From Chitinispirillaceae bacterium (GTDB lineage: Bacteria; Fibrobacterota; Chitinivibrionia; Chitinivibrionales; Chitinispirillaceae): a stretch of DNA of 64,000 bases. Below, in pieces: positions 43,079 through 64,000 of this stretch. How positions within the stretch are numbered: position 1 is the first letter of the stretch; every line of letters begins with the position of its first letter. Below the pieces are notes generated by a model that had not been told where the DNA came from, ran no database searches, and was given only the letters and a program-made list of their open reading frames with translations. The DNA is taken from NCBI GenBank assembly GCA_016930275.1, contig JAFGHA010000078.1:1-64000 (forward strand). The letters are read 5' to 3'. The translations under genes were made by a program, and so were the position numbers.

Positions 43079-44184
43079 GCCGCCTCCGAGAGAACTACTG
43101 CAGCATTGAGACCGCCGAATCCGGCACTGAGGCAGAGGATCGATGGTGTGGTGAATTCCTGAATCGCTGAAGATACCGGCAGTGGCGCATCGGGATCTGC
43201 TTCGGAAAAATGTATCGTCGGTGGAATACTGCGGCGCCGGAGAAACTCGGCGGCCAGAAGCAGTTCCAGAAGTGACCCGGCTCCGCTGGTATGGCCGATG
43301 GCCCCCTTCAACGAAAAGCAGGGAGGAGGGTTGTCGCTGAAGAGACGATTGACCGCTTTCGATTCCATCGCATCGTTATAGACGGTCGCCGTACCGTGAC
43401 ATTTGACCGCACCGATACGGTCGGGCTGGATTGAAGCGTCTTCGAGCGCACCTGCTGCCGCCAGGTACAGCCCCTCACCGGTTCGCGACGGTCCGGTCCG
43501 GTGGTTCGCATCATTCGACTGATCGGCTCCGGAAATGATGATGTCTCCCTTTCGTGGTTTCCCCCGTCGCAGCACCGCTACTGCTGCACCGTCACCCAGC
43601 GACAATCCGTCACGGGTTCTGTCGAATGGACGTGGCCCGGTGGGGCTGAGAGCTCCCAGGGCATGAAATCCGCTGATGACGAAAAGAGAGATTACATCAA
43701 ATCCTGCAATCACGACTTCAGAACAGCTGTCATTTTCAAGCAGATTTTTGGCGATGGCTACTGCCACGGCTCCCGAAGCACAGGCATTGGAAACCACCTG
43801 GGTACGATATGGTTTAATACCTAAAAGGGTGGCGAAATGGTTGGCCTGATCGGCGAGACAGGGAGAAACTTCAGCGGGCAGACCAGTCTGCCGGTGATAC
43901 GGTTCGAGGGCGCGAATGTCTCCTTTTGCCGCCGCATATATGAAAAACGGTTGCTGTGGAAGGACCGGCATCGCATTTTTCAGAACCGGAACGATCTGTT
44001 CGGGTGCCCGAAATGCGGAGTCGTCAAACGGTGCAAAGGCGACGGGAAGGTCGAAGCAGGGGCCGGGTCTGATTGCCGACATGCCCCTCAGAAGTGCTGT
44101 TGTACTTGTCTCCAGTGTTCCCAGTGCGCAATAAAGGGCTCGATGATCAAGAATAACCGCATGTTCCATACACGGAAAATACAC
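43075..44184 (-). CDS. Beta-ketoacyl-ACP synthase, catalytically complete
   Basis: VVSNACASGAVAVAIAKNLL, VKCHGTATVYNDAMES, GAIGHTSGAGSLLE. Confidence 0.92.
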   Translation of the reverse strand: MYFPCMEHAVILDHRALYCALGTLETSTTALLRGMSAIRPGPCFDLPVAFAPFDDSAFRAPEQIVPVLKNAMPVLPQQPFFIYAAAKGDIRALEPYHRQTGLPAEVSPCLADQANHFATLLGIKPYRTQVVSNACASGAVAVAIAKNLLENDSCSEVVIAGFDVISLFVISGFHALGALSPTGPRPFDRTRDGLSLGDGAAVAVLRRGKPRKGDIIISGADQSNDANHRTGPSRTGEGLYLAAAGALEDASIQPDRIGAVKCHGTATVYNDAMESKAVNRLFSDNPPPCFSLKGAIGHTSGAGSLLELLLAAEFLRRRSIPPTIHFSEADPDAPLPVSSAIQEFTTPSILCLSAGFGGLNAAVVLSEAA

Positions 44185-44246
44185 TCTGCTGCCTGAAAAT
44201 GGGAGGCAAAGAACCCGTTCGTTCCGCGATCAGACGGCGGGGAAAT

Positions 44247-45041
44247 TCAACAGGAACCGTTGCGGTGGTACCTTGCCTTGAAAATACGCATTGCAGGAAG
44301 GAAAAGTATGCTTACCGTCAGCAGCACCGCGGTGGACGGTTCGGGAACCCGGGCAGTACGGGTGATGGAAACGATCTTCGTATCGATGGACGTAAGAAAG
44401 GTAAACCGGGGGACAAGGGTTTCTTCGACGAGACGTTCGCTTATGTACCCTTCCATGACCGTCATTGCCTGCCCTTCAATCAGTGATTCGAGACTGGAAT
44501 TGATGTACACTGATAAAAAATAATAGTCCCAGAGCGTCTGCTCAGATTCCGCTGAGGAGACTTTTCCGAGAAATTGATCAACTATTATGTTGGTGGAGTT
44601 CTGACTGATCGAGGTTAATTCCCGGACGTTCTGTATTTCCATATCTGGTGCCGAACTCAGATAGAGATCCTGTATCGAAGGAAAACCTGAAGAGGTAATT
44701 GACAGAAGAAGGTGGGAGGTCGTTATCTGGTTGCTGATTGACGATGCGGATTTCGTCGGACTTTGAGCGACGCCCTTGACCACGGCAAAACCTTGACGGT
44801 CGGTATCAATGAGGAAATCGAGTGAATAAGGAGCTTTCTCCTGAGGTATGGCGGAAAATGCATTTTCCTCGGTTTCCAGAGCAGATATGCTGATGGCTTG
44901 GGACGGATGACTTTCAAAAACCTCGGAAATGCTTCCTTGCGCGCTGATTTGAATCAGTTCGGCTCTGATACCTGCGCATGCCGTCAGGAGAAACAGGATT
45001 GTTTTAATTGACATTGGAACCTCCCCGGTTACTGCATCCAC
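44247..45041 (-). CDS. PEP-CTERM sorting-domain protein
   Basis: Signal peptide; C-terminus VPEPSTAVLLTVSILFLPAMRIFKARYHRN. Confidence 0.85.
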   Translation of the reverse strand: MDAVTGEVPMSIKTILFLLTACAGIRAELIQISAQGSISEVFESHPSQAISISALETEENAFSAIPQEKAPYSLDFLIDTDRQGFAVVKGVAQSPTKSASSISNQITTSHLLLSITSSGFPSIQDLYLSSAPDMEIQNVRELTSISQNSTNIIVDQFLGKVSSAESEQTLWDYYFLSVYINSSLESLIEGQAMTVMEGYISERLVEETLVPRFTFLTSIDTKIVSITRTARVPEPSTAVLLTVSILFLPAMRIFKARYHRNGSC

Positions 45042-45253: not shown

Positions 45254-46609
<1,356 letters not shown>

Positions 46610-47038: not shown

Positions 47039-48118
47039 ATGGCTAATTTAAACGTTTCAAATCCCAACCTTCAAACAGATCACGCAGGTTTTTCCTCCAA
47101 TGGGGGGCGCACAGCACGGGCACGTATCGCAATTCTTCAGGTACTCGAAGAATTGGGGGAATCCGCAGGGGCACAAAAAATCGCCGATATGCTGAACGCT
47201 TCCGGGGTTGAACTTCAGGCACGTTCCATCCGGTTTCATCTCCAGAGAATGGATCAGGAAGGTCTGACAACATCAACCGCCCGGCATGAAGGTCGTCAGA
47301 TTACCGATACCGGACGGGAACTGTTATCCCGTAACAGCGTCGTCAATAAAGTCGGCTTTATCAGTTCCGTGATGGATGATCTCGGCTATCGTATGACGTT
47401 TGAGGTGAAAAGCGGTCGCGGAAATGTTATTGCGAACATTGTCCGGATATCTGAAGCGGATCTTTCCCGTGCAATTCATTATATGAAACCTGTTTTTCGT
47501 GCGGGACTGAGTATGGGTGACCGGATTGCGGTACGGATGCCGGGGCATTATTTCGGAAGCCATGAGGTAAAAAGGGGTAAGGTCATACTCTCGACGATCT
47601 GCAGTGTCACCATCAACGGAATATTCCAAAAAGCGGGAATTCCGGTGATTTCCCGATTCGGCGGGTTGGTCGAAATGCGCGGTGGTACGCCAAGACGGTT
47701 TCTTGAAGTTACGGAGTATCGGGGTACTTCAACGGATCCCCATAAAATGTTTATCATGTCAGGTATGACGGATGTCAACAAATTTGCCGCCACCGGAAAC
47801 GGCATCATCGGGGTGAGTTTTCGGGAATTTCCCTCTGCCGCCGCGGAAAAAGCGAGAAAACTGGTTACCCGGCTCCGGGAATCCAATTTGAATGGAGTAC
47901 TTGCAATCGGCCACCCGAATCGGCCGTTGATGGATATTCGTGTCAGTGACGGACGGACCGCAATGGTTACTATCGATGGTCTGAATCCGATTGCCGCGCT
48001 GCATGAAGCCGGTATCCCGTTGCACCTCAACCCGCTGTCGGGACTGGAAGAAATTTCCGAGTATGTGCCGTTCGGTGATGTCGCACCGATGGAACGTCGA
48101 AGTACCTACGTTGAATAG
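47039..48118 (+). CDS. NrpR-like nitrogen regulator (winged helix + one DUF128/NrpR regulatory domain)
   Basis: ARIAILQVLEELGESAGAQKIADMLNASGVELQARSIRFHLQRMDQEGLT; VGFISSVMDDLGYRMTFEV...GIIGVSFREFPSAA. Confidence 0.85.
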   Translation: MANLNVSNPNLQTDHAGFSSNGGRTARARIAILQVLEELGESAGAQKIADMLNASGVELQARSIRFHLQRMDQEGLTTSTARHEGRQITDTGRELLSRNSVVNKVGFISSVMDDLGYRMTFEVKSGRGNVIANIVRISEADLSRAIHYMKPVFRAGLSMGDRIAVRMPGHYFGSHEVKRGKVILSTICSVTINGIFQKAGIPVISRFGGLVEMRGGTPRRFLEVTEYRGTSTDPHKMFIMSGMTDVNKFAATGNGIIGVSFREFPSAAAEKARKLVTRLRESNLNGVLAIGHPNRPLMDIRVSDGRTAMVTIDGLNPIAALHEAGIPLHLNPLSGLEEISEYVPFGDVAPMERRSTYVE

Positions 48119-48120
48119 AA

Positions 48121-48543
48121 GTGTTTTCGGATATGAATCAGGAAAATAACATGGCGGAATTTGCAGTTTACCTCTGTAAAAACAGTCTTCCGGATATCAG
48201 TTCGTTTCCCGTCCAATGGACCGAATCGGGTATGCACGTCCGGGTCAAGCTGGTTCCCTGCAGTGGTAAGATCGATATACAGTACATGCTTCATACGCTT
48301 GAGGCGGGGAGAGCGGGTATATGCGTGATCACCTGCCCGCACGGGGAATGTACGTTGTCGCAGGGCAATTACCGTGCGGATATACGGGTGCGTTCACTCA
48401 AGAATCTGCTTGGAGAAATTGGTCTGGATCCTGATTGCGTAACGGTTATTCATACGCCGTCGGGTTCGACCGCGGATGACCTTAAAGGGCTGGTCGATTC
48501 GATGGTGAAAACGCTTGCCGGTAAAACTGCGGCCAGGGTATAG
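48121..48543 (+). CDS. Hydrogenase iron-sulfur subunit MvhD-like (copy 1)
   Basis: RVKLVPCSGKIDIQYMLHTLEAGRAGICVITCPHGECTLSQGNYRADIRVRSLKNLL. Confidence 0.85.
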   Translation: MFSDMNQENNMAEFAVYLCKNSLPDISSFPVQWTESGMHVRVKLVPCSGKIDIQYMLHTLEAGRAGICVITCPHGECTLSQGNYRADIRVRSLKNLLGEIGLDPDCVTVIHTPSGSTADDLKGLVDSMVKTLAGKTAARV

Positions 48544-48573: not shown

Positions 48574-49458
48574 ATGCCACAAGAAAAAAAGACGTTACAG
48601 CAGCGGATTGAATCGGGAAAGCGGATCATTATTACCGAAATCGCCCCTCCTGAAAACGGGAATGCTGCACTGGTGCGGGAGACTGCCGGAACATTCTCGG
48701 GCAAAGTGCACGCGATCGGCGTGAGTGATAACCGGGAGAGGATAGGCATGTCCGCCCTGGTCGTTTCCGCACTTGTCAAAGAGGCGGGAGGCGAGCCGAT
48801 TCTGCACATGTCGACCCGTGACCGTAACCGCGCGGCACTCTCATCCGACTGCCTGGGCGCGCATGCGCTGGGTATCCGCAACATCCTGTGTACCAGCGGA
48901 ACCCATCAGACGCTGCTGCCGTTTCCCACGGTGAAAAATGTTTTTGATATCGATGCGACGGTACTGCTGCAGCACTGCCGTGAACTTGAAAGGAAAGCCG
49001 GGATGGAGGTGCCCTTCTGCCTTGGTGCGGTTGCCTCTCCCTTCGCAGATCCTGCGGAACTGCAGCTTGTCCGGCTTGCACAGAAGGTGCATGTCGGGGC
49101 CGGTTTCTTTGTCACACAGCCGGTATTCGACGTTGAACGGTTCGGCACCTGGTGTAAAGAGATTGTTTCGCGGCAGCTGCATACCAAAGCGGCTTGCATT
49201 GCCGGTGTTCAGATAGTGACCGATGCAGCGCAGGCAAGGGAACTGGCAGTCAAACGGCCGGATCCGCTTCTGCCGGAGGCGGTTATAGAACGTCTGGAAA
49301 AGGCCGGTGACGCCCGAGCGGAGGGAATCGCGCTCGCACGAGAGACGATCGAAAAGGTGTTGTCTTTTGAAGGGGTCCGCGGGATTTCGGTGATTTGTGA
49401 CGAGGATCCGACCGCGGTACTGGAAGTTCTTGACTCTATGGAATCTGATCTGGAGTAG
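48574..49458 (+). CDS. metF: Methylenetetrahydrofolate reductase
   Basis: IITEIAPPENGN, HMSTRDRNRAALSSDCLGAHALGIRNILCTSG, LGAVASPF, VGAGFFVTQPVFD. Confidence 0.92.
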   Translation: MPQEKKTLQQRIESGKRIIITEIAPPENGNAALVRETAGTFSGKVHAIGVSDNRERIGMSALVVSALVKEAGGEPILHMSTRDRNRAALSSDCLGAHALGIRNILCTSGTHQTLLPFPTVKNVFDIDATVLLQHCRELERKAGMEVPFCLGAVASPFADPAELQLVRLAQKVHVGAGFFVTQPVFDVERFGTWCKEIVSRQLHTKAACIAGVQIVTDAAQARELAVKRPDPLLPEAVIERLEKAGDARAEGIALARETIEKVLSFEGVRGISVICDEDPTAVLEVLDSMESDLE

Positions 49459-49464
49459 ACGAAC

Positions 49465-50862
49465 ATGCCGGCCAAATATCACATTCATGCTCATGCCGCT
49501 CCACCGCGATTTCCCACCGAGGGAAAACTCGGCATCGTCGACTGGCGGGAAGACTGTTCCAGCTGTCATAACTGTGTAAAAAAAGGGTGCGTCTACGGGT
49601 TCTACCGGGAAGAGACGGACCTGCTTCGCGATGATATCGGTTATCTCGATTATATATATAAATGTAAAGGGTGTCTGACCTGTATTCAGAACTGCACCAA
49701 GAACATACTCACCCGCGTTGTCAACCCTGAGTATGAACGTCTGGGAGACGAATATTTCAGACCGGACATCATTCTGACCACCTGGTATCAAGCGGAAACG
49801 GGTGCGGTGCCGGTATCGGGGTGCGGTTACGGCGGTCCGTTCAGCGGCAGCGGTTTCGATTCCATGTGGACCGATATGTCGGAAATCGTCCGGCCGACCC
49901 GTGACGGAATCCATGGCCGCGAGTACATCAACACCAGTGTGGATATCGGCCGAAAACTCAAACGCCTCAATTTTTCCGGCGATACCATTACCGATACCGT
50001 TCCGCCGCTCCTCAGCAGTCCGCTGCCGCTTATGTTCGATATGGTTGCGGAGCAGTGGCGGCACCCGGTGATACTCTCGGCAATGGTCAAGGTCGCCGCG
50101 GAACTCAAACTCTTTGCCATTATCGACAGTGAAGTGCTTGCCGGGATGTCCGTCGAGGAACGTGCTCCGGTCATACCGCTCTTCACCGGAACGGATCCGG
50201 TCCGTGAAGCCGCCGGTGCTCAGGCGCCGATGATTATCCTTCCCGATTCGGAAAATATTCTCGAAACGGTGAAGGAATGCAAAAGTCAGAATTCGCAACG
50301 GATCGTTGCCGTACGTGTTACCGCCGGTACCGATTCATTCAAAAGGGTTACTGAACTGGCCGGAAACGGCGTGGAGGTAATCAATCTCCGGTTCGACAGC
50401 CACGGTCGAGAGGAGGCGGGAAAGCAGCGCCACATGCGCGATGTCATCCGTGAAGTGCACGGTGAACTCATCAGGCAGGGCTTGCGCGACGAAGTGACCC
50501 TGTTTACCTCAGGGGGAATCGCACTCCCGGAACACATGGCGAAGGCGATTATCTGCGGGACCGATCTGGTGGCAATCGATATACCGCTGATCGTGGCACT
50601 GGAATGCCGGTTGTGCGGGCAGTGTGCACTCGGCGGGCAGTGCTCCATAGGCCTCGCGACGATCGATGAACACTATGCCGTGAGCAGAATGATAAATCTC
50701 ATGGGGTCGTGGCACAGTCAGCTGCTCGAAATGCTGGGTGCCATGGGAATCCGTGAAGCACGGCGGCTTCGTGGCGAGGTCGGCCGCTGCATGTTTTTTG
50801 AAGACCTTGAACGGGCAGCATTCGGAAGACTGTTCGGGAAACGTCTGGACAGAAAGAATTAA
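49465..50862 (+). CDS. Ferredoxin + divergent glutamate synthase FMN-domain-like protein
   Basis: DCSSCHNCVKKGCV...CKGCLTCIQNCTK; GOGAT-like barrel end CRLCGQCALGGQCSIGLAT...LLEMLGAMGIREARRLRGEVGR. Confidence 0.8.
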   Translation: MPAKYHIHAHAAPPRFPTEGKLGIVDWREDCSSCHNCVKKGCVYGFYREETDLLRDDIGYLDYIYKCKGCLTCIQNCTKNILTRVVNPEYERLGDEYFRPDIILTTWYQAETGAVPVSGCGYGGPFSGSGFDSMWTDMSEIVRPTRDGIHGREYINTSVDIGRKLKRLNFSGDTITDTVPPLLSSPLPLMFDMVAEQWRHPVILSAMVKVAAELKLFAIIDSEVLAGMSVEERAPVIPLFTGTDPVREAAGAQAPMIILPDSENILETVKECKSQNSQRIVAVRVTAGTDSFKRVTELAGNGVEVINLRFDSHGREEAGKQRHMRDVIREVHGELIRQGLRDEVTLFTSGGIALPEHMAKAIICGTDLVAIDIPLIVALECRLCGQCALGGQCSIGLATIDEHYAVSRMINLMGSWHSQLLEMLGAMGIREARRLRGEVGRCMFFEDLERAAFGRLFGKRLDRKN

Positions 50863-50871
50863 CAACAGGAA

Positions 50872-52440
50872 GTGTTGACCGATATGAGTGGAACCACAAC
50901 CGCCCGGCAATCTCAGACCGCGGAACAGTTCGCGGAGAACCCCGATTTCGCTGCAGTGTCACGCGAGGTATGTATCGCGCCACCGCGCTACCGCAATGAG
51001 ATCGGGAAGTACTCCATTCACCGGGCGTCAACCTGCATTTCATGCGGCAAATGCGTTGAGGTGTGTACAAAGGGTGTTCATGTCCGGCCGGAAGGGTATC
51101 GGCAGGTGCTCCGTCCGTTCGATTACCGCTGCAATGGTGACGAGTGCAGGGAAACCGACCATTTCTGTGTCGATCACTGTCCGCAGCAGGCGCTTTCGCT
51201 TGATGAGAGCCCGGTGTTTAAAACACTGGGTGATTACCGCTGGACTCCCGACCTTTTGGCGAGCAACTGGTTCATGGCCGAGACCGGGGAGATGCCGCCT
51301 TCTTTTCTTGAGAGTGAAATCGGCGACTCGGGCGGCGGATTTGACCGTCTGCGTTTCATTTTCCCCGAGAAACCGCCTGAAGATCTGCGTCGGGAAGATA
51401 TCAATACGCAGGTACTCCTGAACAAACGAAAAAATGATTCGCGCCCCAAGATCACCATCGATGTTCCCTGGTACGGCGGCGGTATGTCCTTCGGATCGAC
51501 CAATATCCGTGCACAGCTCGGCAAGGTCCGTTGCGCAAAGGCGTGGAACACCTTCAGCTGTACCGGTGAAGGCGGGTATCCCGACCGTTTTATTCCCTAT
51601 CGTGATCATATGATTACGCAGGTCGCCACCGGTCTGTTCGGTGTACGTGAAGAGACGATTCAGCACGCGCGTATCGTCGAGTTCAAGTATGCCCAAGGGG
51701 CGAAACCGGGACTGGGCGGACATCTGCTCGGCAGTAAAAATACGCCGGCGGTTGCCGCGATGCGCGAAGCGGTCGTCGGAACGTCGCTGTTTTCACCATT
51801 TCCTTTTCACAGCGTCTATTCCATCGAGGATCACAAGAAACATCTCGACTGGATCGGGCATGTCAACCGTAAAACGCTGCTCAGTGCGAAAGTATCGACG
51901 CCCAACGACGTGGAAATGGTTGCCGTGGGTTCCTACTGCGCGGGTGCGCATATCGTGCATCTTGACGGGAGCTACGGTGGTACGGGAGCGGCGCCCAATA
52001 TCGCGAAAAAGAACATTGCCATGCCCATCGAATATGCGATCAGCAACGTGCACCAGTTCCTGGTCGCCGAAGGTGTCCGTGACGAAGTGGCACTGATCGT
52101 CAGCGGCGGGATCCGCAATCCGTGGGATATCGCCAAGGCGATCGCAATGGGTGCCGACGGTATCGTGATAGGTACGGCGGAACTGGCCGCTTTCGGCTGC
52201 ATCAGATGCGGCTGCTGTGAAAGCGGACGGGGATGTCCCCGTGGTATCTGTACGACCGATCCGGAACTTCTTGAACTGTTGACCCTTGAGTGGTGCACCC
52301 AGCGTCTTGTCAATCTGTACTGCGCATTCAGGAAGTGTCTTGTTGACATCCTTTACCGGCTGGGAATCGAATCGGTCGCCGCTCTGCGGGGACGTACCGA
52401 TCTGCTGATGCATCTGGACTACGATAATAAACGGACATAA
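50872..52440 (+). CDS. Ferredoxin + glutamate synthase FMN-domain protein (canonical motifs)
   Basis: CISCGKCVEVCTKG; MSFGSTNIRAQLG, SCTGEGG, YAQGAKPGLGGHL, YSIEDHKKHLDW, LDGSYGGTGAAP, FGCIRCGCCESGRGCPRGICTTD. Confidence 0.88.
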   Translation: MLTDMSGTTTARQSQTAEQFAENPDFAAVSREVCIAPPRYRNEIGKYSIHRASTCISCGKCVEVCTKGVHVRPEGYRQVLRPFDYRCNGDECRETDHFCVDHCPQQALSLDESPVFKTLGDYRWTPDLLASNWFMAETGEMPPSFLESEIGDSGGGFDRLRFIFPEKPPEDLRREDINTQVLLNKRKNDSRPKITIDVPWYGGGMSFGSTNIRAQLGKVRCAKAWNTFSCTGEGGYPDRFIPYRDHMITQVATGLFGVREETIQHARIVEFKYAQGAKPGLGGHLLGSKNTPAVAAMREAVVGTSLFSPFPFHSVYSIEDHKKHLDWIGHVNRKTLLSAKVSTPNDVEMVAVGSYCAGAHIVHLDGSYGGTGAAPNIAKKNIAMPIEYAISNVHQFLVAEGVRDEVALIVSGGIRNPWDIAKAIAMGADGIVIGTAELAAFGCIRCGCCESGRGCPRGICTTDPELLELLTLEWCTQRLVNLYCAFRKCLVDILYRLGIESVAALRGRTDLLMHLDYDNKRT

Positions 52441-52446
52441 CACATT

Positions 52447-55107
52447 ATGACAATGAACAGCAACCAGTTTGATCATGCCGAAAAAATTCTGCGCAGCCGT
52501 GAGGAGCTGCGGCCGCAGGGCGAGTGGTTTCAGACGCCACCCGAAGCTGAAGGCGGGTGCGGTGTCACCGGGTTCGCCTGTACCATACCGGTACGCGGAA
52601 AACATATCTACGAACCGAGCATTCAGATGCGCAACCGCGGTAACGGGAAAGGCGGCGGTATCGCGGCATGCGGTCTTCATCCCGATGATTTCGGTGTGTC
52701 ACGTTCGACGCTCGATAAGGATTATCTCCTGCAGGTCGCTCTGCTCGATCCTTCAGCCAGGGAAGAGGTTGAAAAAGAGTTCGTTGAGCCGTACTTTACC
52801 ATAGACCATGGTGGCCTCATCGATACGGTGCAGGATTTCCGTGACGTGCCGCTTCTCGAGGTTCGGCCGCCGGATGTCGCCAGGTATTTTGTCCGAGTAA
52901 AGCCAGACGCGGCAGACCGGTTTGCGAGCGAGAAGAAACTGACCGGACTTTCGGACCGTGAAATCGAAGATGAGTTCGTCTACCAGAATTCAAACAGGAT
53001 CAACAGTAAATATTACGCTTCGCTCGGCGAGAAACGCGCATTTGTCCTGTCTCATGCACGGAATCTACTTATTCTGAAAGTGGTCGGTTACGCCGAAGCG
53101 GTTGTACAGTACTATTGCATGGAAGATTCACGGGCGCATGTCTGGATCGCCCATCAGCGATATCCCACACGCGGTCGTGTGTGGCATCCCGGCGGGTGCC
53201 ATCCGTTCATCGGTATGCACGAGGCACTGGTGCACAACGGCGATTTCGCGAATTACCATTCGGTATGCGAGTATCTCGCGCAGCGGAACCTCTTTCCCCA
53301 GTTTCTTACCGATACCGAAACATCGGTAATGCTGTTCGACCTCATGAACCGTGTCTACAACTACCCGATCGAATACATCATCGAATCGCTGGCGCCGACG
53401 ACCGAGCTTGACTTCGACCGGTTGCCGCCCGAAAAGCAGCGCGTCTACCGTGAGCTGCAGGCGGCGCAGATGCATTCGTCGCCCGATGGCCCGTGGTTTT
53501 TCATTATTGCACGGAATATGGCGGAGAAGGGTTTCCAGCTGCTGGGTATCACGGATACCGCCATGTTGCGACCGCAGGTTTTCGCGGTTCAGGAGTCCGA
53601 AGAAGTTTCCATCGGACTGATCTGTTCCGAAAAACAGGCAATCGATGCGACTCTCGCCAGCCTTGCTGAAGAGGATCCGCGTTTCAATCCGATAGCTGAT
53701 AAATACTGGAATGCCCGTGGCGGCAGTTCGACCGACGGGGGCGCGTTCCTTTTGAATATTGTTCCTGACGTAACAGACAGGCCCGCCCGCAGGGACGGAT
53801 TCCCGTCATATACCATGCAGGTGACCAACAAGTTCGGTATTCCGGTTATTGCCGGTACCGGACAGGTTCCGTGTAACCTTTCTCACCCGGTGTCGGAACC
53901 AACCGACAGCAAAGCGATTGGCGATGCATTGACAGCCGCAGGCACCGTCCATGATGCGGAGCGCCTGTTCTCTTATTTAAGCGAAGCGACACGGATCATG
54001 GATTACAACGGATTCCGCTGGAGTGTCAACACGTTCGCGGACCAATGCGTGGACCATGATCCGCTGCTGGGCATTCAGGTGCTCACGTTATGCATCGACC
54101 GCCGGTATCCGACGGGTGACAAGAAACGCAGTTCCGTCATTTCCCTATGCAGGCAGGGGTTGCAGCGGATTTTCGACCGCCAGCCACTCTTTACGGAAGA
54201 TGCATCGGCGGATATCGTCTGCCGGAGGGTGACCTTCGCGACGAGGGGCTCACTGCGCGGTCCGGCCGGAAACGAAAAAACCCTGCTCATTGACGCACGG
54301 GGATTCCAGCCGGAAGGAATCGACTGCGATGCTTATACAGCAGTGGATGCGTATCATCTCGGCTGGCGCCATCTCGTTCATTACAATTCTCGGGGCACAC
54401 GGTTTCATGCCGCCGGTTTCGGACCGGCGACCGACGGACTGCGGGTCGACTGTTACGACAATCCCGGCGACTACCTCGGTTCAGGTATCGACGGACTTGA
54501 AGCATACGTGCATTGCAATGCACAGGATCAGCTCTGCCAGATTTCGAAGCGCGGCAAGGTGGTTATTTACGGCGATGTCGGGCAGACGTTTCTGTACGGT
54601 GCCAAAGGCGGTGAAGTATATGTACTCGGCAATGCGGCCGGTCGGCCGATGATCAATGCGGTGGGAAAACCGCGGGTGGTGATCAACGGGACCGCGCTTG
54701 ATTTTCTTGCGGAGTCGTTCATGGCCGGTGTCCCCCTTAACGGTGGTGGATTTGCCATTGTCAATGGTGTTACGGTCGCCGACGACGGAACAGTGGAGCC
54801 TCTTGAACTTCCGTATCCCGGCAGCAACCTCCTGTCACTCGCATCGGGCGGAGCAATCTACATGCGCGATCCGCAGCGGACGCTTGTCAGTGAACAGCTC
54901 AATGGCGGCATGTTTCAGCGGTTTACCGGTGAAGACTGGAAGCTGATCCTTCCGTATCTGCAGGAGAACCAGCGGTTGTTCGGTATCGATATAGAACGTG
55001 ATCTTTTAACCGTCAATGGCGTGCGGAAGGAGCCGGGACAGGTGTATCGGAAGGTCGCTCCGCAGGATCATACGGCGGAAGAGGAAATGGATGACTTTGG
55101 GGATTGA
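52447..55107 (+). CDS. Class II glutamine amidotransferase + GXGXG domain protein (GOGAT-like)
   Basis: GCGVTGFACTIPVRG, HQRYPTRGRVWHPGGCHPFIGMHEALVHNGDFANYHS; C-terminal GKVVIYGDVGQTFLYGAKGGEVYVLGNAAGRPM. Confidence 0.9.
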   Translation: MTMNSNQFDHAEKILRSREELRPQGEWFQTPPEAEGGCGVTGFACTIPVRGKHIYEPSIQMRNRGNGKGGGIAACGLHPDDFGVSRSTLDKDYLLQVALLDPSAREEVEKEFVEPYFTIDHGGLIDTVQDFRDVPLLEVRPPDVARYFVRVKPDAADRFASEKKLTGLSDREIEDEFVYQNSNRINSKYYASLGEKRAFVLSHARNLLILKVVGYAEAVVQYYCMEDSRAHVWIAHQRYPTRGRVWHPGGCHPFIGMHEALVHNGDFANYHSVCEYLAQRNLFPQFLTDTETSVMLFDLMNRVYNYPIEYIIESLAPTTELDFDRLPPEKQRVYRELQAAQMHSSPDGPWFFIIARNMAEKGFQLLGITDTAMLRPQVFAVQESEEVSIGLICSEKQAIDATLASLAEEDPRFNPIADKYWNARGGSSTDGGAFLLNIVPDVTDRPARRDGFPSYTMQVTNKFGIPVIAGTGQVPCNLSHPVSEPTDSKAIGDALTAAGTVHDAERLFSYLSEATRIMDYNGFRWSVNTFADQCVDHDPLLGIQVLTLCIDRRYPTGDKKRSSVISLCRQGLQRIFDRQPLFTEDASADIVCRRVTFATRGSLRGPAGNEKTLLIDARGFQPEGIDCDAYTAVDAYHLGWRHLVHYNSRGTRFHAAGFGPATDGLRVDCYDNPGDYLGSGIDGLEAYVHCNAQDQLCQISKRGKVVIYGDVGQTFLYGAKGGEVYVLGNAAGRPMINAVGKPRVVINGTALDFLAESFMAGVPLNGGGFAIVNGVTVADDGTVEPLELPYPGSNLLSLASGGAIYMRDPQRTLVSEQLNGGMFQRFTGEDWKLILPYLQENQRLFGIDIERDLLTVNGVRKEPGQVYRKVAPQDHTAEEEMDDFGD

Positions 55108-55116
55108 GGAACGGAC

Positions 55117-56028
55117 ATGATTGTCGAAAGTGATATCGGAACAAAAACGACGACGGCCGCCAAGAAGGATCTGAGCGGTGCCGTTCTGGTGAGCGGCGGA
55201 GGAATCGCCGGTATTCAGGCGGCGATTGATCTGAGTGCGGCAGGTTTTCTGGTGTATCTCGTCGAGGAGAGCCCGACCATTGGTGGAAACATGGCGCGTC
55301 TTGACAAAACGTTTCCCACCGGAGACTGCGCGACCTGTATCATTTCGCCCAAGATTGTTGCCTGTATGCGTGATCTGAACATAGAAGTAATGACCATGTC
55401 GGAAGTCATCGCCCTTGACGGCGAGGCAGGTAACTTCACCGCGAAAGTGCGGACGAAACCGCGCAGTGTCAAAATGGATGCCTGCACCGGATGCGGCGAC
55501 TGCATTGAACATTGTCCGGTACGCAACCGGGTCCAGGACGTGAAGCCGTTTGCACCGGTGGTACCGGTTGCCGATGACGACAGAAAACTGCTCAATACGA
55601 TCGTGGCGAAGTATCCGAAGGAACAGGCGTCGCTCATACCCGTTCTGCAGGATATTACCGAAGCACGCGGGTATCTGCCGCGTCCGATGCTCGAGAGTTT
55701 GTCCGTCGATATCGATGTTGCGCTTGCCGATATTCTGCGGGTTGCCAGTTTCTACAACGGTTTCAGTCTGAAGCCGGTCGGACGCATTACCATCGAGGTG
55801 TGTCTGGGTACCGCCTGTTTCGTCAGGGGTTCGGGCCTGCTTTTTGAACGGCTCGAGGAAGAACTCGGCGTTGGTGACGGAGAGACCGATACCGAGGGGC
55901 GCTTTACGCTCAGGTCGGTACGGTGTATCGGCTGTTGTGCACTCGCTCCGGCGATGCGCATTAATGGTGTAACCTTCGGAAAAGTGAAACTTGATAAAGT
56001 AATAGATATACTGAAACGGTTCGAATGA
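55117..56028 (+). CDS. HdrA N-terminal segment fused to NuoE/24 kDa-type subunit
   Basis: VSGGGIAGIQAAIDLSAAGFLVYLVEESPTIGGNMARLDKTFPTGDCATCIISPK...CTGCGDCIEHCP; then IPVLQDITEARGYLP...VCLGTACFVRGSG...RCIGCCALAPAM. Confidence 0.9.
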   Translation: MIVESDIGTKTTTAAKKDLSGAVLVSGGGIAGIQAAIDLSAAGFLVYLVEESPTIGGNMARLDKTFPTGDCATCIISPKIVACMRDLNIEVMTMSEVIALDGEAGNFTAKVRTKPRSVKMDACTGCGDCIEHCPVRNRVQDVKPFAPVVPVADDDRKLLNTIVAKYPKEQASLIPVLQDITEARGYLPRPMLESLSVDIDVALADILRVASFYNGFSLKPVGRITIEVCLGTACFVRGSGLLFERLEEELGVGDGETDTEGRFTLRSVRCIGCCALAPAMRINGVTFGKVKLDKVIDILKRFE

Positions 56029-57929
56029 CTATAACAACTGAAAAAGATCTCGACAGAGTTGCCGTGGCCGGTGAATCGACCCTGTACCCGAAAACGATGA
56101 AAATCATGATCGGTTCGGCGAGCTGCGGTATCGGAGCGGGCGCGCGCACGGTTGAAGAGGCGGCGATAAAAACGGTGAAGGAGCTGGGAATCGATGCGGT
56201 TGTCACCCGTACCGGGTGCGTGGGATGGTGCCAGCGTGAACCGCTTGTCGACATACTGGTTCCCGGTGCTCCGCGACTGTGCTACGAACTGATGACACCT
56301 GCGAAAATGGAAAAAGTACTCACCGAGTACGCCGAAAAGGGAGTGTTGCCGACAGACGGAGTGCTTTACCGCTACGAAAAAGAGGAAAATGTACTGCAGG
56401 ATACGGCATTTGTTTATCCGCAACCGAACGGGTATGCGCAGCTGCCGGAACGTTCGACACTCGATTTTTTCAGCAGACAGAAACGGGTGATCCTGCGTAA
56501 CTGCGGCTCCATCGATGCGATGAATATTGCCGAGGCGATTGCCCGCGGGGCGTATCGCGGTGCTTTCCGTGCGCTGACGACCATGAAACCGTCCGAGGTG
56601 TTCGAGGTCGTGCTTGCTTCGGGATTGCGCGGCCGCGGCGGAGCGGGATTTCCGACCGCCCGGAAATGGGAAACGGCGATGCGGCAGGAATCCGATGTCA
56701 AGTATATCATCTGCAATGCCGACGAGGGTGATCCGGGCGCGTTCATGGACCGCAGCGTTCTCGAAGGCGATCCGCATGCCCTGGTCGAGGGGTTGCTCAT
56801 CGGGGCTTACGCTATCGGGGCGTCCAGGGCGTTCATTTACGTGCGGAGTGAATATCCGCTTGCGGTTGAAACGCTGCAGCAGGCCCTCAAAGAGGCTGCC
56901 GAACACGGTATTACGGGAGATAATATTTTCGGAAGCGGTTTCTCTCTCGCAATAGAGATCCGCAAAGGAGCGGGAGCGTTCGTCTGTGGTGAGGAGACCG
57001 CTCTTCTGGCTTCGATTGAGGGACGTGCCGGAGAACCCCGCCCGCGTCCGCCATTCCCGGCGGTCAAGGGGTTGTGGGGGAAACCGACGGTCATCAACAA
57101 TGTGAAAACGCTTTCGAGTATCGGCCCCATCCTCAGCCGGGGCGCCGAGTGGTATGCCTCCCGGGGGGCCGAGAACAATCGCGGAACGACGGTTTTCGCG
57201 ATTGTCGGTGCGGTGAAAAATACCGGGCTCGTGGAAGTACCGCTCGGGATATCCCTCAGGGAGATGGTGGAGGTAATCGGCGGAGGTTCACAGAGCAGCC
57301 GGCCGATCAAAGCGGTCCAGACGGGCGGTCCTTCGGGCGGTTGCATTCCCGAATCGCTGTTCGATCTGCCGATTGACTACGAGAAACTGGCGGGAGCCGG
57401 GGCGATGATGGGATCGGGAGGTATGATCGCCATTGATACGGCTACCTGTATCGTCGATCTCGCCCGGTTTTTTCTTACATTTACCACCGAAGAATCGTGC
57501 GGGAAATGCACTCCCTGTCGTGAAGGAACAAAGCAGATGCTGCATCTGCTCGAAAAGATTTGTGAAGGTAAAGGAACCGAAACCGATCTGGCAATCCTCG
57601 AGGACCTCGCGGCGACCATTAAATCCGCATCGTTGTGCGGACTGGGGCAGACCGCACCGAATCCGGTGCTCACGGCGCTGCGGCATTTCAGGAGTGAATT
57701 TGAGGCGCATGTCGTGGATAAGAAATGTCCCGCGGGGGTGTGCCGCAATCTGATAACGGTAGCAATAGATGCGCAGCGCTGCAGCGGATGCGGGCAGTGC
57801 GTAAAAGTCTGTGCGGTCAACGCGATCAGCGGTGAACGTAAAAAGGCGCACATGATTGATGCGGGCGTATGTACCCGCTGCGGTGCATGCAGGAATATCT
57901 GTACATTCGAGGCGGTAATAAGTAACTGA
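56025..57929 (+). CDS. NuoF/HndC-type NADH-binding subunit with C-terminal ferredoxin
   Basis: GLRGRGGAGFPTARKWE, CNADEGDPGAFMDRS, GAGAFVCGEETALLASIEG, ESCGKCTPCREG, C-terminal CSGCGQCVKVC...CTRCGACRNIC. Confidence 0.95.
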   Translation: MTITTEKDLDRVAVAGESTLYPKTMKIMIGSASCGIGAGARTVEEAAIKTVKELGIDAVVTRTGCVGWCQREPLVDILVPGAPRLCYELMTPAKMEKVLTEYAEKGVLPTDGVLYRYEKEENVLQDTAFVYPQPNGYAQLPERSTLDFFSRQKRVILRNCGSIDAMNIAEAIARGAYRGAFRALTTMKPSEVFEVVLASGLRGRGGAGFPTARKWETAMRQESDVKYIICNADEGDPGAFMDRSVLEGDPHALVEGLLIGAYAIGASRAFIYVRSEYPLAVETLQQALKEAAEHGITGDNIFGSGFSLAIEIRKGAGAFVCGEETALLASIEGRAGEPRPRPPFPAVKGLWGKPTVINNVKTLSSIGPILSRGAEWYASRGAENNRGTTVFAIVGAVKNTGLVEVPLGISLREMVEVIGGGSQSSRPIKAVQTGGPSGGCIPESLFDLPIDYEKLAGAGAMMGSGGMIAIDTATCIVDLARFFLTFTTEESCGKCTPCREGTKQMLHLLEKICEGKGTETDLAILEDLAATIKSASLCGLGQTAPNPVLTALRHFRSEFEAHVVDKKCPAGVCRNLITVAIDAQRCSGCGQCVKVCAVNAISGERKKAHMIDAGVCTRCGACRNICTFEAVISN

Positions 57930-58114: not shown

Positions 58115-61100
58115 ATGAATAACGAATCGACAGCACCGGTTTTTGTGAAGGTAACGATCGACGGCCGTACTGCGGAGGTGGCGGCGGGCACCATGCTGCT
58201 TGATGCCGCCCGGGGTATGGGTATCGCTATTCCGACATTGTGCGCCTATCGTGGCCTGTCTCCGTATGGCGCCTGTCGTGTCTGTATCGTTGAGATCGAT
58301 ACACCGCGTGGTCGTAAACAGGTCGCATCCTGTTCCCATCCGGTCGATGACGGTCTGGTGGCGTATACCGATACACCGCAGGTGCTCAAAAGCAGAAAGA
58401 TAATCCTCGAACTGCTGCTGGCTCAGGCGCCTGATTCGGAACAACTTGCCGCCTTTGCACGGGAACAGGGGGTTGTCACCACAACGTATCGGAAAGCGAG
58501 CGATAATTCCTGTATCCTCTGCGGGCTCTGCGTCAGAACCTGCAGTGACGTTATGGGAAGGCATGCCATCAGCATGTTCGGGCGCGGACACGAGCGCAAG
58601 GTGCAACCGGCGTTCGGGGAACAGAGTGACCAGTGTCAATTGTGCGGCGGCTGTGATTACGTCTGTCCGACCGGAGCCATTGAACTGACAAAAATAGGGA
58701 CACGGGAGGCACGGCCTCATCTGACTGCCTATGCCCAGTATCTGCAGAAACGGCCGAATATCGACATGGCTCACCCGCAGGCGGTTCCCCGAGTACCGGT
58801 CATCGACCGTGAAAACTGTGTACATTTCAAAACGGGTGAATGCGGCATTTGTGAAAAAGTCTGTCAGGCGAAGGCGATCGATTACGACCAGCAGGAAACA
58901 ACGGTTGACATCGATGTGGGTGCGGTACTGCTCACGCCGGGTTTCAGTGCCTTTGATCCGATTGAACGTATCGAATACGGCAGCGCCTTCAGCAGGAATG
59001 TACTCACGAATCTCCAGTTCGAACGTCTGCTCTCTGCGGCGGGACCGACCGGTGGACACATACGGCGCCCGTCGGACAGCACGACGCCGAAACATATCGC
59101 ATTCATCCAGTGTGTAGGTTCACGGGACGGCAAATGCGGTAATGAATACTGCTCGTCGGTGTGCTGCATGGCCGCGACCAAGGAGGCGATACTCGCCCGT
59201 CAGCATGAACCCGATACGGAAGTGACGATTTATTATATGGATATGCGGGCATACGGCAAGGATTTTGACCGGTATGTCAAGCGGGCACAGGAGGAAGGTG
59301 TCAACTACATCCGTTGCCGTCCCTCATCGGTTGACGAAATCATGACAACCGGCAACCTCACCATTTCTTATATGAACGAGGATAACCGCTGTATTTACCG
59401 GGAACACGATATGGTCGTTCTGTCACTCGGACTTGAGCCGAGTGCGAGTCTTTCACGGCAGGTGGAACAGTTCAACATCATGCTCAACGAATGGGGGTTC
59501 GTGAAGAGCCGCGAACTGCATCCGCTCGAGACATCGCGTCCCGGCGTGTTTGCGGCAGGCGTCCTGCAGGAACCGAAGGATATTCCCGATACCGTCATGC
59601 AGGCGAGTGCAGCAGCGGCGATGGCGATGACTCTGCTTGCTCCGGCACGCGGTACGAAAGTGCGGACAAAGACCTATCCGCCGCAGCGTGATATCACCGA
59701 TGAACCGCCGCGTATCGGCGTATTCGTCTGTCACTGCGGCAGCAACATCGCCTCGGTAGTCGATGTCGCCTCGGTGGTCGAGCGAACAAGAAATCACCCC
59801 TATGTGGTATATGCCGATCATAATGTCTATACCTGTGCGGATGACACGCAGGACCAGATCAAGGACCTGATCAAGGAGCACCGGCTCAACCGTGTCATCG
59901 TGGCGTCATGCACACCCCGTACTCATGAGGCGATCTTTCGTGATACGTTGCGGGATGCGGGGCTCAATCCTTACCTGCTTGAAATGGCCAATATCCGTGA
60001 CCAGTGTTCGTGGGTACATTCATCACAGGCGGATGCGGCAACCGACAAGGCCGCGGATCTGGTGCGCATGGCCATCGGCCGCACCGCAGGGCTCCGGCCG
60101 CTCAAGGATGAAACCATACCGGTCAAGAACAGCGCGCTGATCATCGGCGGCGGTATCGCCGGTATAACCGCCGCGCTGTCGATAGCCGATCAGGGATTCC
60201 GCGTATATCTTGTCGAAAAGGAAAACATGCTCGGCGGAACCGCCCGCGACATCCATCAGACGCTGGACAGGAGTAACGTGCAGGCGCATCTGACGAGAGC
60301 CATCGAGCAGGTTGTCAAGCATCCGAAGATAACGACCTGTCTGACTTCCCGGGTTACCAAAGTTGACGGGCATGTCGGTGATTTCACCTCGACGATAACG
60401 ACTGAGGACGGGACGGTCGAAGTGGAACACGGTATTGTCGTTCTGGCGACGGGAGCGGTCGAACAGAAACCGCGTTCCTATGGTTACGGACAGCATGCCG
60501 GCGTCGTGACGCAGCTTGAACTTTCCGGAAAACTGGGGCGTGGTGAGCTGGAACTTTCCGACGGCGCAAGTGTCGTCATGATACAGTGTGTCGAACAGCG
60601 CAATGACGAACATCAGTACTGCAGCCGCGTGTGCTGCACCACGGCGGTCAAGAATGCGCTTCTGGTGAAGGAGCGTTTCCCGAAAGCAAGAATCTACGTG
60701 CTGTATCGTGAAATGAGAACCTTCGGATTCCGGGAGGCGGCATACGCCGAAGCCCGTGAAAAGGGAATCGTTTTCATCCGTTATAACGAGGACCGGTTGC
60801 CGGAAGTAAATGTCGGTGAAACACTGACCGTACGTACCGTGGATCCGGTTCTCGGTCGTGAACTGATCGTTAAGCCGGAACTCCTGGTTCTTGCCGCGCC
60901 GATTGTCGGGCGTCCCGACCGTGAAGTCGTTTCCGAACTGCTTCGTGTTCCGATCAATGCCGACGGTTTTTTCCTGGAGGCGCACGTCAAACTGCGTCCG
61001 GTCGATTTCGCCAGTGAAGGACTGTTTCTGTGCGGTACGGCGCATGCACCGAAATTCGTCGGTGAGACGATATCGCAGGCGAATGCGGTTGCCGCCCGGG

Positions 61101-61465
61101 CGGCATCGATTCTTTCGCGTAAAGAAATGCCGGTGAGCGCACAGGTCGCCTGGGTTGATCCCCAGAAGTGCATTGCCTGCATGACCTGTGTGCATGTCTG
61201 CCCGTACATGGCACCGCAGATCGGTAAGGACAACAAGGCGGAAGTCCAGTCTGCCGTCTGCATGGGATGCGGAAGCTGTACCGCGGCATGTCCGGCAAAG
61301 GCCATATCGCTGCATCACTACCTTGATATGCAGATTTTCGCGGCGATCGACAACCTGCTGGGAAAAGAGAGTGCAGACCGACCGGAGAAACCCTATTTTC
61401 TCGAACAGGTGGGTATTGCCAGACCGCCGCTGAAGATCAAAGAAAAAACCGTTCAACCGGGATAA
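58115..61465 (+). CDS. NuoG-type N-terminal ferredoxin region fused to long-form HdrA lacking its first segment
   Basis: [51 protein letters not shown]; then [30 protein letters not shown]...[12 protein letters not shown]...[13 protein letters not shown]...[20 protein letters not shown]. Confidence 0.92.
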   Translation: [1116 protein letters not shown]

Positions 61466-61475
61466 ATGCGACATT

Positions 61476-61958
61476 ATGGATAACAAACCTGTAATTCTTG
61501 CTTTCTGCTGCCACTACTGCGCGTATGCCGCCGCTGACATGGCCGGTTCGATGCGCCTGCAGTATCCGGCGAACATCCGGGTATTGCGGTTTCCCTGTAC
61601 CGGGAAAATCGAGGAGAACCATATCCTCGCGGCTTTCGAAAAGGGAGTCGACGGCGTTATGGTTGCCGGTTGCCTCGAAGGGGGTTGCCATTTTCTCGAG
61701 GGAAATCTACGGGCGCGCAAACGTGTGGAGCGTGTCAAGCAGTTGCTCGATGAGATCGGTGTTGGTGGTGAACGTCTCGATATGTTCAACCTCTCCTCTG
61801 CCGAAGGTCCCCGCTTTGCGGAGATCGCACGGGTGATGTATGAACGGATTGAACCGCTTGGCCCGAGTCCGCTGCGGACCGGTGCCGCGGAATTGAATGC
61901 GGGTATTGCTCAGATGGCTCAAGAGGCTGAAATGGCGATTCAAGGAGGTCAGAAATGA
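61476..61958 (+). CDS. Hydrogenase iron-sulfur subunit MvhD-like (copy 2)
   Basis: CCHYCAYAAADMAGSMRLQYPANIRVLRFPCTGKIEENHILAAFEKGVDGVMVAGCLEGGCHFLEGN. Confidence 0.93.
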   Translation: MDNKPVILAFCCHYCAYAAADMAGSMRLQYPANIRVLRFPCTGKIEENHILAAFEKGVDGVMVAGCLEGGCHFLEGNLRARKRVERVKQLLDEIGVGGERLDMFNLSSAEGPRFAEIARVMYERIEPLGPSPLRTGAAELNAGIAQMAQEAEMAIQGGQK

Positions 61959-62647
61959 TTGTTGCCGATCGGAAGAAAATTCCGGAGATCAGGGATATGA
62001 TTCAGGACTATGACCGCATTTTACTGGTTGGGTGCGGTACCTGCGTGACCGTTTGTCTTGCCGGAGGCGAGCGTGAGGTGGGAATCATCGGCGCTGCGTT
62101 GCGTATGGCACTGAAACTTTCCGGACGGCAGGGAGTGACCGTCGATGAATTTACCATAGAACGTCAGTGTGAAGATGCTTTCATTGATATGCTCGCGGAG
62201 CGGGCGGAACACTACGATGCGATCATCTCGCTGGGTTGCGGTGCCGGTGTACAGACACTGGCTGAACGGTTTCCGGGGAAACCCGTTTTTCCGGGACTCA
62301 ATACTCAGTTTATCGGCATTTTAGAATCGCAGGGCGTGTGGACCGAGAAATGTGCGGCATGCGGGAACTGCAGAATAGGCGAATATTTCGGCATCTGTCC
62401 GATTACCCGCTGTGCGAAACGCCAGTTGAACGGACCATGCGGCGGTTCACGCGGGGGAAAATGCGAAGTGAGTGATACGGTCGACTGTGCCTGGCAGCTG
62501 ATTTACGATCGTGCCAAAGCCCTCAATAAAGTTGAGATACTCGAACGGGTTGCTCTTCCTCATGACTGGTCGACCTCCAATGACGGCAGTGTCCGTAAAG
62601 TCATTCGTGAAGATCAGTGTATCGCCGGAATGGGCCCCAAGGCCTGA
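61955..62647 (+). CDS. metV: MTHFR C-terminal/zinc-finger-type protein (MetV-like)
   Basis: LLVGCGTCVTVCLAGGEREV...CAACGNCRIGEYFGICPITRCAKRQLNGPCGGSRGGKCEV. Confidence 0.88.
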   Translation: MIVADRKKIPEIRDMIQDYDRILLVGCGTCVTVCLAGGEREVGIIGAALRMALKLSGRQGVTVDEFTIERQCEDAFIDMLAERAEHYDAIISLGCGAGVQTLAERFPGKPVFPGLNTQFIGILESQGVWTEKCAACGNCRIGEYFGICPITRCAKRQLNGPCGGSRGGKCEVSDTVDCAWQLIYDRAKALNKVEILERVALPHDWSTSNDGSVRKVIREDQCIAGMGPKA

Positions 62648-62678: not shown

Positions 62679-63098
62679 ATGAGTGCAGAAAATGTCGAAG
62701 TGATTGTTGCGGAAAAGCTGGATCCGGGGTTCTGCGATGAGATCGCGTCAATGCCGGGTGGCGGCAATATCCGGAAGTGTTTCGCCTGCGGTACCTGTGC
62801 CGCCGGCTGTCCGGTGACCAGCATCGACGATGAGTACAACTGTCGTACCATCATCCGTCAGATACAGTACGGCATGCGCGAAGAAGTACTCAAGTCGCCG
62901 GTAATATGGCTCTGCGTCATGTGTTACCGCTGCTACGCCCGCTGTCCGCAGCAGGTGAATTTCACCGATATCATGCGTGCGCTCCGTCATCTGGCGGTGA
63001 AAGAGGGGTACGCTCCGGTTGAAATGCTCAACAAAGAGGATGAGTTTGACAAAAAAGCGCACCAGCTTCGTCGGGAAATGGTTAAAAAAGCTCAATAG
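62679..63098 (+). CDS. hdrC: Heterodisulfide reductase subunit C-like
   Basis: RKCFACGTCAAGCPVTSID...VIWLCVMCYRCYARCPQQVNFTDIMRALRHLAVKEG. Confidence 0.92.
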   Translation: MSAENVEVIVAEKLDPGFCDEIASMPGGGNIRKCFACGTCAAGCPVTSIDDEYNCRTIIRQIQYGMREEVLKSPVIWLCVMCYRCYARCPQQVNFTDIMRALRHLAVKEGYAPVEMLNKEDEFDKKAHQLRREMVKKAQ

Positions 63099-63127: not shown

Positions 63128-64000
63128 ATGCATAAACGAGCGATGGTTATCGGTGGCGGTGTCGCGGGAATTCAGGCTGCCCTGGATCTCGCCGAGATGG
63201 GTGTCGAGACATTTCTGGTCGAGAAAGGTCCCTCCATCGGCGGACGCATGGCACAGCTTGACAAAACATTTCCGACCAACGACTGCGCGATGTGTATCCT
63301 TTCACCGAAACTGGTCAGTGCGGGAAGTCACCCCTATCTGTCCATCATCACCAATGCCGAAGTTGTCGGGATAGAAGGCAACGCTCCCGACTTGAAGGTC
63401 AGGATTCTGAAAAAACCTCGGTATGTAAAGGAAGACGCCTGTACGGGATGCGGTATATGTGTTTCGAAATGTCCCACAAAGATCCCCGATCCCTACAACA
63501 AGGGCCTGAGTCAGACCAAGGCAATCCGTATTCCGTTTCCTCAGGCGGTTCCGGCGGTCGCGGTCATTGATGCGGAGAACTGCCGTTATCTTAAGGAGGG
63601 TAAATGTCGCGTTTGTGAAAAAGTCTGCGGGACCAATGCGATTGATTTTTCCCAGACGGAAGAGCTGATCGATCTTAAGGTGGGATCGGTTATACTTTCC
63701 TGCGGTACCACCGAGTTTGACGTGAAACTCAAAGGGGAGTACGGCTACGGTATATTCCCGAATGTCCTCACCAGTATCGAATACGAACGCATTCTCAGCG
63801 CTTCGGGGCCTTCGGCGGGGCATATAACACGCCCATCGGATCATAAAGAGCCGAAGAAAATCGCCATTCTCCAGTGTGTCGGGTCCCGGGATGTGCAGGC
63901 GGGGAACGAACACTGCTCCGCAATCTGCTGTATGCAGGCGGCAAAGGATGCCATCATTACGCAGGAGCATCTCCCCGGTGCGCAGACAACGATTTTTTAC
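63128..64000 (+). CDS. hdrA: Heterodisulfide reductase subunit A-like, truncated by window end
   Basis: Open frame from ATG 63128: VIGGGVAGIQAALDLAEMGVETFLVEKGPSIGGRMAQLDKTFPTNDCAMCILSPK...CTGCGICVSKCP...IAILQCVGSRD; absent from ORF track because no stop in window. Confidence 0.93.
   Translation, partial: MHKRAMVIGGGVAGIQAALDLAEMGVETFLVEKGPSIGGRMAQLDKTFPTNDCAMCILSPKLVSAGSHPYLSIITNAEVVGIEGNAPDLKVRILKKPRYVKEDACTGCGICVSKCPTKIPDPYNKGLSQTKAIRIPFPQAVPAVAVIDAENCRYLKEGKCRVCEKVCGTNAIDFSQTEELIDLKVGSVILSCGTTEFDVKLKGEYGYGIFPNVLTSIEYERILSASGPSAGHITRPSDHKEPKKIAILQCVGSRDVQAGNEHCSAICCMQAAKDAIITQEHLPGAQTTIFY

Follow-up and report, generated by a model that had tools for sequence, protein, structure and literature searches.

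Why would a glutamate synthase operon preserve, directly beside its catalytic flavin subunit, a second version of that subunit from which the active site has disappeared? The question is raised by a 64,000-nt stretch of DNA from a Chitinispirillaceae bacterium (assembly GCA_016930275.1, contig JAFGHA010000078.1, positions 1 to 64,000, forward strand; hereafter the window), whose source genome bin is 87% complete with 7.4% contamination. Nitrogen enters biomass mainly through glutamate synthase (GOGAT), for which only a handful of electron inputs are known: NADPH or NADH via GltD, ferredoxin, and F420 via FrhB. An earlier note had read positions 49465-55107 as a three-part split GOGAT with one canonical and one degenerate flavin mononucleotide (FMN)-domain protein, and three open reading frames (ORFs) are indeed found there (49465-50862, 50872-52440 and 52447-55107), separated by gaps of 6–9 bp within a single operon. 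We refer to the protein of ORF 49465-50862 as GltBdeg and to that of ORF 50872-52440 as GltB2; the amidotransferase and GXGXG domains lie together on the third protein (886 aa), as the note had also proposed. Our comparison of this locus with its relatives makes it reasonably probable that the three proteins form a heteromeric glutamate synthase in which GltBdeg serves as an iron-sulfur (Fe-S) electron-entry adaptor on GltB2, fed via FlpD from Hdr/NADH-type modules.

GltBdeg and its catalytic paralogue

The catalytic side of the system is intact. GltB2 carries the CTGEGG, AQGAKPG, SPFPFHSVYSIED and DGSYGGTGA motifs together with the cluster cysteines, and its PF01645 match covers residues 184-499. 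Across 68 sequences, GEGG, AQGAKPG, Lys999, GGTGA, GT1093-1094 and C1102/C1108/C1113 are conserved at 98–100%, which bears out every GOGAT motif that had been claimed for this ORF, and in the amidotransferase Cys38, Arg238, Asn264-Gly265 and Asp289 are kept in 62 of 62 sequences.

GltBdeg presents the opposite picture in its barrel. Scanning 84,980 species genomes by pattern yielded at least 537 candidate relatives, and the best 80 of them were aligned. GEGG, AQGAKPG, the loop-4 motif and GGTGA are missing from all 80 and the phosphate-site GT is replaced, so that the two FMN proteins do not both have complete active sites; the SGGI loop is still present. The N-terminal ferredoxin region keeps its eight cysteines in every sequence (80/80), and the GltB-type cluster cysteines C381, C384 and C393 are each found in 79 of the 80 sequences and C387 in 70. 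The note had described the window protein as sharing the layout of GltB2 with most motifs missing, and this same pattern of loss and retention recurs in the 80 homologues, beyond chance. Conservation is strong in the N- and C-terminal thirds while the barrel (176-325) drifts, and a near-invariant signature, WTDMSEIVRPTRDGIHGREYI (residues 135-155), is without counterpart in GltB2.

Despite this divergence, GltBdeg belongs to the same family as GltB2. A profile-profile comparison (hhalign) aligns the two over 420 columns (prob 100, E = 6.5e-57); pairwise BLAST detects 33–34% identity at the two ends only, and PF01645 is matched over the last third only (327-429, E = 2e-14). No curated family model is specific for GltBdeg. 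For the GltBdeg of the window, structure prediction gives an FMN-oxidase-type barrel in which most of residues 161-420 have a predicted local distance difference test score (pLDDT) above 85, and this fold, together with the full-length profile match, rules out an unrelated ferredoxin protein. A phylogeny of the two FMN proteins, which the note had suggested as a check, places GltBdeg in a single clade (support 100/100) with a long branch between it and GltB2, pointing to one old duplication. On the evidence of these alignments, GltBdeg is best described as a GltB2 paralogue that lost its active site and retained its Fe-S ligands.

The gene is widespread and under constraint. GltBdeg occurs in more than 10 phyla, with lineages that include Fibrobacteres, Omnitrophota, Planctomycetota, Desulfobacterota-type bacteria, Chloroflexi, Acidobacteria, Sumerlaeota, Hydrogenedentota, Armatimonadota, Bacteroidia and Latescibacterota. 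It is found in 7 of 168 Fibrobacterota genomes and in 59 of 218 sampled genomes of one other phylum, always as a single copy. The ratio of nonsynonymous to synonymous substitution rates (dN/dS), computed on close GltBdeg pairs, is 0.06–0.16 overall and 0.09–0.28 in the barrel. With intact genes in many phyla and dN/dS far below 1, a pseudogene or an assembly artefact is ruled out. The accelerated barrel is what one would expect of a decaying gene hitch-hiking in the operon, but we give that idea virtually no credence, as it is refuted by the selection on the barrel, the open frames in more than 10 phyla and the fusions described below.

Pairing of GltBdeg with GltB2

Synteny was counted over 86 GltBdeg loci, in 81 of which GltB2 is the gene directly downstream. 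In at least eight genomes from at least two phyla, the two proteins are fused into a single polypeptide: one of 998 aa in Fibrobacterota (L095), one of 1090 aa in Latescibacterota (L070), and six more that were confirmed in another phylum (L105-L110). A physical pair is therefore the best reading, and fusions in unrelated lineages are strong evidence for such an association. The pairwise distances of GltBdeg and GltB2 also correlate (r = 0.93), but since every operon pair gives r = 0.89–0.94, this indicates joint inheritance only.

Where GltBdeg might sit is suggested by comparison with the one-piece enzyme. No central domain was detectable in the amidotransferase/GXGXG protein by profile comparison (prob 0.1), and when GltBdeg is compared with full GltB, the second-best match is to the central domain, weakly (254 columns, prob 25.6, E = 7e-4), so GltBdeg may take the place of this domain. 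A structure of one fusion was predicted from an alignment of fusions and GltB2 only, because mixing separate and fused proteins misplaced GltBdeg onto the GltB2 half; in a fold search of the PDB with this model, one-piece GltB chains rank first, with up to 983 columns aligned. That GltBdeg is simply a detached GltB central domain is disfavored by the weakness of the similarity, although the idea survives as the structural alternative weighed below.

The one-piece GltB of NADPH-GOGAT (alpha subunit, PDB 1ea0/2vdc) and Fd-GOGAT (1ofd) have the same catalytic FMN domain, and the fusions repeat their order of an FMN-less barrel followed by the FMN barrel. One-piece GltB differs in being without ferredoxin domains or a second set of clusters, and its electron input is GltD. 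In the archaeal-type split glutamate synthase GltB1/GltB2/GltB3, the ferredoxin-FMN protein, the class II amidotransferase and the GXGXG domains are separate proteins. This system shares with ours an FMN-domain protein with an N-terminal two-cluster ferredoxin domain, whereas here the amidotransferase and GXGXG domains are fused, and a dead GltB2 paralogue accompanies them in every locus examined, along with FlpD, MetF, Hdr and Nuo genes.

The operon and its electron-supply genes

The operon spans 47039 to beyond 64000, far more than the interval first noted. Its genes, all on the forward strand, are as follows.

47039..48118 (+): NrpR-type nitrogen regulator (HTH_12 and NRD), the operon's first gene; PF01995, E = 1.7e-72
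48121..48543 (+): FlpD1, FlpD/MvhD-like [2Fe-2S] electron-transfer protein; PF02662, E = 1.8e-19
48574..49458 (+): MetF-like protein, Asp120-equivalent lost (Thr in the window); PF02219 and residue table
49465..50862 (+): GltBdeg, with two [4Fe-4S] ferredoxin motifs, an FMN-type barrel without FMN/substrate motifs, and C-terminal cluster cysteines
50872..52440 (+): GltB2, ferredoxin plus catalytic FMN/2-oxoglutarate domain of glutamate synthase; PF01645, E = 2e-82; PDB GltS, E = 2.8e-48
52447..55107 (+): class II glutamine amidotransferase (Cys38 after a propeptide) plus GXGXG domain, 886 aa; GXGXG by PF01493, E = 2.4e-9
55117..56028 (+): N-terminal part of HdrA fused to a NuoE-type [2Fe-2S] protein; domain matches
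56025..57929 (+): NuoF-type NADH-oxidising FMN/[4Fe-4S] protein with an extra ferredoxin domain; TIGR01959, E = 7.7e-143
58115..61465 (+): NuoG N-terminal domain fused to a double HdrA (flavin adenine dinucleotide, several 4Fe-4S); domain matches
61476..61958 (+): second FlpD/MvhD; PF02662, E = 1.7e-48
61955..62647 (+): MetV-like Fe-S protein; PF12225, E = 1.5e-33
62679..63098 (+): HdrC-like dicluster ferredoxin; ATG at 62679 likely, longest ORF from 62511
63128..64000 (+): start of a second double HdrA (1004 aa, running past the window), followed by a third FlpD

Between 55117 and 61465, HdrA looks split and mixed with complex-I parts, the NuoE and NuoG fusions flanking NuoF. Outside the operon, a glutamate dehydrogenase gene (45254-46594, minus strand) is divergent from the NrpR-headed operon, and 43075-45041, also on the minus strand, holds a beta-ketoacyl-synthase-like ORF together with another whose C-terminus resembles PEP-CTERM (VPEPSTAVLLT).

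The gene order of the window is repeated in four relatives within the limits of their contigs and, with HdrC-HdrB added, across phyla. Of the 86 loci, 79 have FlpD upstream of GltBdeg; five of the remaining seven lie at the edge of a contig, and tblastn gives a hit in the last two. The gene immediately before GltBdeg is MetF in 77 of the 86, and HdrA-type genes follow downstream in 45 of 51, a count limited to loci with 8 kb or more of room. The window has HdrA, HdrC and FlpD genes; HdrB, present in 33 other loci, was found neither there nor in the remainder of the contig. Apart from HdrB, we found no additional gene cluster recurring widely in GltBdeg operons, and none of the GltD kind. Minimal operons consist of FlpD, the fusion and the amidotransferase protein, with or without MetV/MetF or GlnA (e.g., L107, L108); the constant core is therefore FlpD, GltBdeg, GltB2 and the amidotransferase/GXGXG protein. 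A strict tie of the operon to the Wood-Ljungdahl pathway is unsupported, with acetyl-CoA synthase in only 17 of 34 GltBdeg genomes.

The MetF-like protein appears to be a second component that has lost its original chemistry. In the 77 operon MetFs tabulated, the equivalent of Glu28 is kept in 75, whereas that of Asp120 (E. coli numbering) is replaced in 68, by Thr, Tyr, Phe, His, Asn, Ala, Ser, Lys or Gln. Asp is kept in the six MetFs directly beside MetV and in three others (Fisher p = 4e-7, kinship ignored). With the D120N change, E. coli MetF keeps 0.3% of its kcat and has a Km more than 40 times higher (PMC11094777), and most operon MetFs, the window's included, are therefore probably poor methylenetetrahydrofolate (methylene-THF) reductases that may serve solely as flavin electron carriers. 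The window's MetF is unlikely to be the working methylene-THF reductase, given the lost Asp120 and a canonical methylene-THF reductase (MTHFR) gene elsewhere in the genome. One locus (L036) contains tandem GltBdeg operons, a MetV-MetF type with Asp120 kept followed by an Hdr type whose MetF has lost it.

By analogy of gene content, the nearest biochemical precedent is the MetFV-HdrABC-MvhD methylene-THF reductase complex of Moorella. According to two reports (PMC5736913, PMC9012536), this complex shares the gene set of FlpD/MvhD, MetF, MetV, double HdrA, HdrB and HdrC, and its second acceptor is unknown. In the operons described here, by contrast, GOGAT subunits are inserted, MetF has mostly lost Asp120, and a NuoEFG-type NADH module is added. 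For the F420-dependent GOGATs of anaerobic methanotrophic archaea (ANME) and methanogens, too, the subunit genes cluster with an uncommon input protein, in their case FrhB/F420, and the section of the source that covers them mentions no dead FMN paralogue (PMC9012536).

Candidate mechanism and alternatives

We favor a scheme in which GltB2 would hold FMN and make glutamate, with ammonia delivered from glutamine by the amidotransferase/GXGXG protein. GltBdeg, an ancient GltB2 duplicate that would have lost flavin and substrate binding, would bind GltB2, probably at the position of the central domain of one-piece GltB. Electrons would pass from an NADH/Hdr or MetV-type module of the same operon (HdrA, NuoEF, MetV/MetF-like) to FlpD, which would dock on the complex, then through the GltBdeg clusters to the FMN of GltB2, where 2-iminoglutarate would be reduced. 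GltBdeg would thus replace GltD as the input subunit, and the final donor is presumably supplied by these modules. That the catalytic/degenerate pair forms a heteromer, as the earlier note had suggested, is well supported by adjacency, fusions, monophyly and purifying selection. Several points weigh on the other side. Six of the 51 loci with room have no downstream HdrA genes, and gene order is by itself no proof that HdrA/NuoF and GOGAT form one complex. The predicted fusion structure has a predicted template modelling score (pTM) of 0.64, which is moderate and too low to define an interface, modelling without clusters renders the ferredoxin region of GltBdeg poorly, and one relative (L012) is without the C-terminal cluster cysteines.

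In a rival reading, GltBdeg would be mainly structural, replacing the GltB central domain and organising the ammonia tunnel, with clusters that are inherited and non-essential. The missing central domain in the amidotransferase/GXGXG protein, the second-best match of GltBdeg, the central-FMN order of the fusions and the alignment of the fusion model across GltB would all fit such a role; a purely structural part, however, would not preserve two clusters, and the ferredoxin cysteines are invariant while the barrel drifts. As the homology of GltBdeg to GltB2 is also far stronger than that to the central domain, we regard a structural role as unlikely. Somewhat bolder, and compatible with an electron-entry adaptor as its stronger form, is an electron-bifurcating or confurcating glutamate synthase, in which NuoF would oxidise NADH and the electrons would be split at the HdrA flavin, one branch running via FlpD/GltBdeg to GOGAT and the other to ferredoxin. 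The potential of glutamate formation is far more positive than that of NADH, so bifurcation is energetically possible, and the operon contains NuoE, NuoF and NuoG-HdrA fusions, FlpD and HdrC, with HdrB in other loci. HdrA complexes bifurcate in other systems, and the Moorella complex, with its unknown second acceptor, offers a precedent (PMC9012536, PMC5736913). The minimal operons L107 and L108 speak against a requirement for bifurcation in all members, and we give this scheme a low probability. Its widest version, in which ammonia assimilation would be the high-potential sink of an HdrA/NuoF complex, dead GltBdeg and dead MetF would act as wiring and reduced ferredoxin would be recovered, is a possibility to which we attach similarly low probability.

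A different amide acceptor, the other half of the earlier proposal, is not supported. Repurposing for another amination, with an acceptor other than 2-oxoglutarate, would bring the pair close to N-methylglutamate synthase MgsABC, which by its description has separate A, B and C subunits and a methylamine acceptor, whereas here the amidotransferase and GXGXG domains are fused. Two observations would fit repurposing: loop 4 of GltB2 reads PFPFHS, invariant across the family, in place of PPPHHD in Azospirillum GltS, and the window genome holds elsewhere a fragment of a conventional, one-piece-type GOGAT. Together with the canonical MTHFR, that fragment makes the operon there a second, specialised system, yet in 7 of 12 host genomes sampled (of uncertain completeness) no other full one-piece GOGAT was seen. 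Every GOGAT catalytic motif is kept, as are the glutaminase residues. NrpR, a 2-oxoglutarate-responsive nitrogen regulator, lies upstream of GltBdeg in 11 of the 86 loci (the window and 10 others) and adjoins it in 5 of 8 further loci, and a glutamine synthetase (GlnA) gene belongs to the cluster or borders it in L083, L108 and L112 and is found close by in L061 and L082. Given the intact residues of GltB2 and the amidotransferase/GXGXG protein and these neighbors, ordinary glutamate synthesis is most likely the reaction of the locus, and repurposing is very unlikely. A very divergent Glu_synthase-domain protein of 520–530 aa was also observed (L059:6231-7817, L044:6337-7923 and L084:8099-9661), placed between NrpR and FlpD in L059 and L044.

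Searches of the open-licence literature aimed at this operon found no published description of it. If GltBdeg is indeed the electron-entry subunit, glutamate synthase would gain a further input route, through a conserved Fe-S pseudo-enzyme partner that gene order links to FlpD/Hdr/NADH modules in more than 10 anaerobic phyla, and a testable function can be offered for genes in hundreds of genomes that no curated family model names. Nitrogen assimilation could then become part of energy conservation in energy-limited anaerobes.

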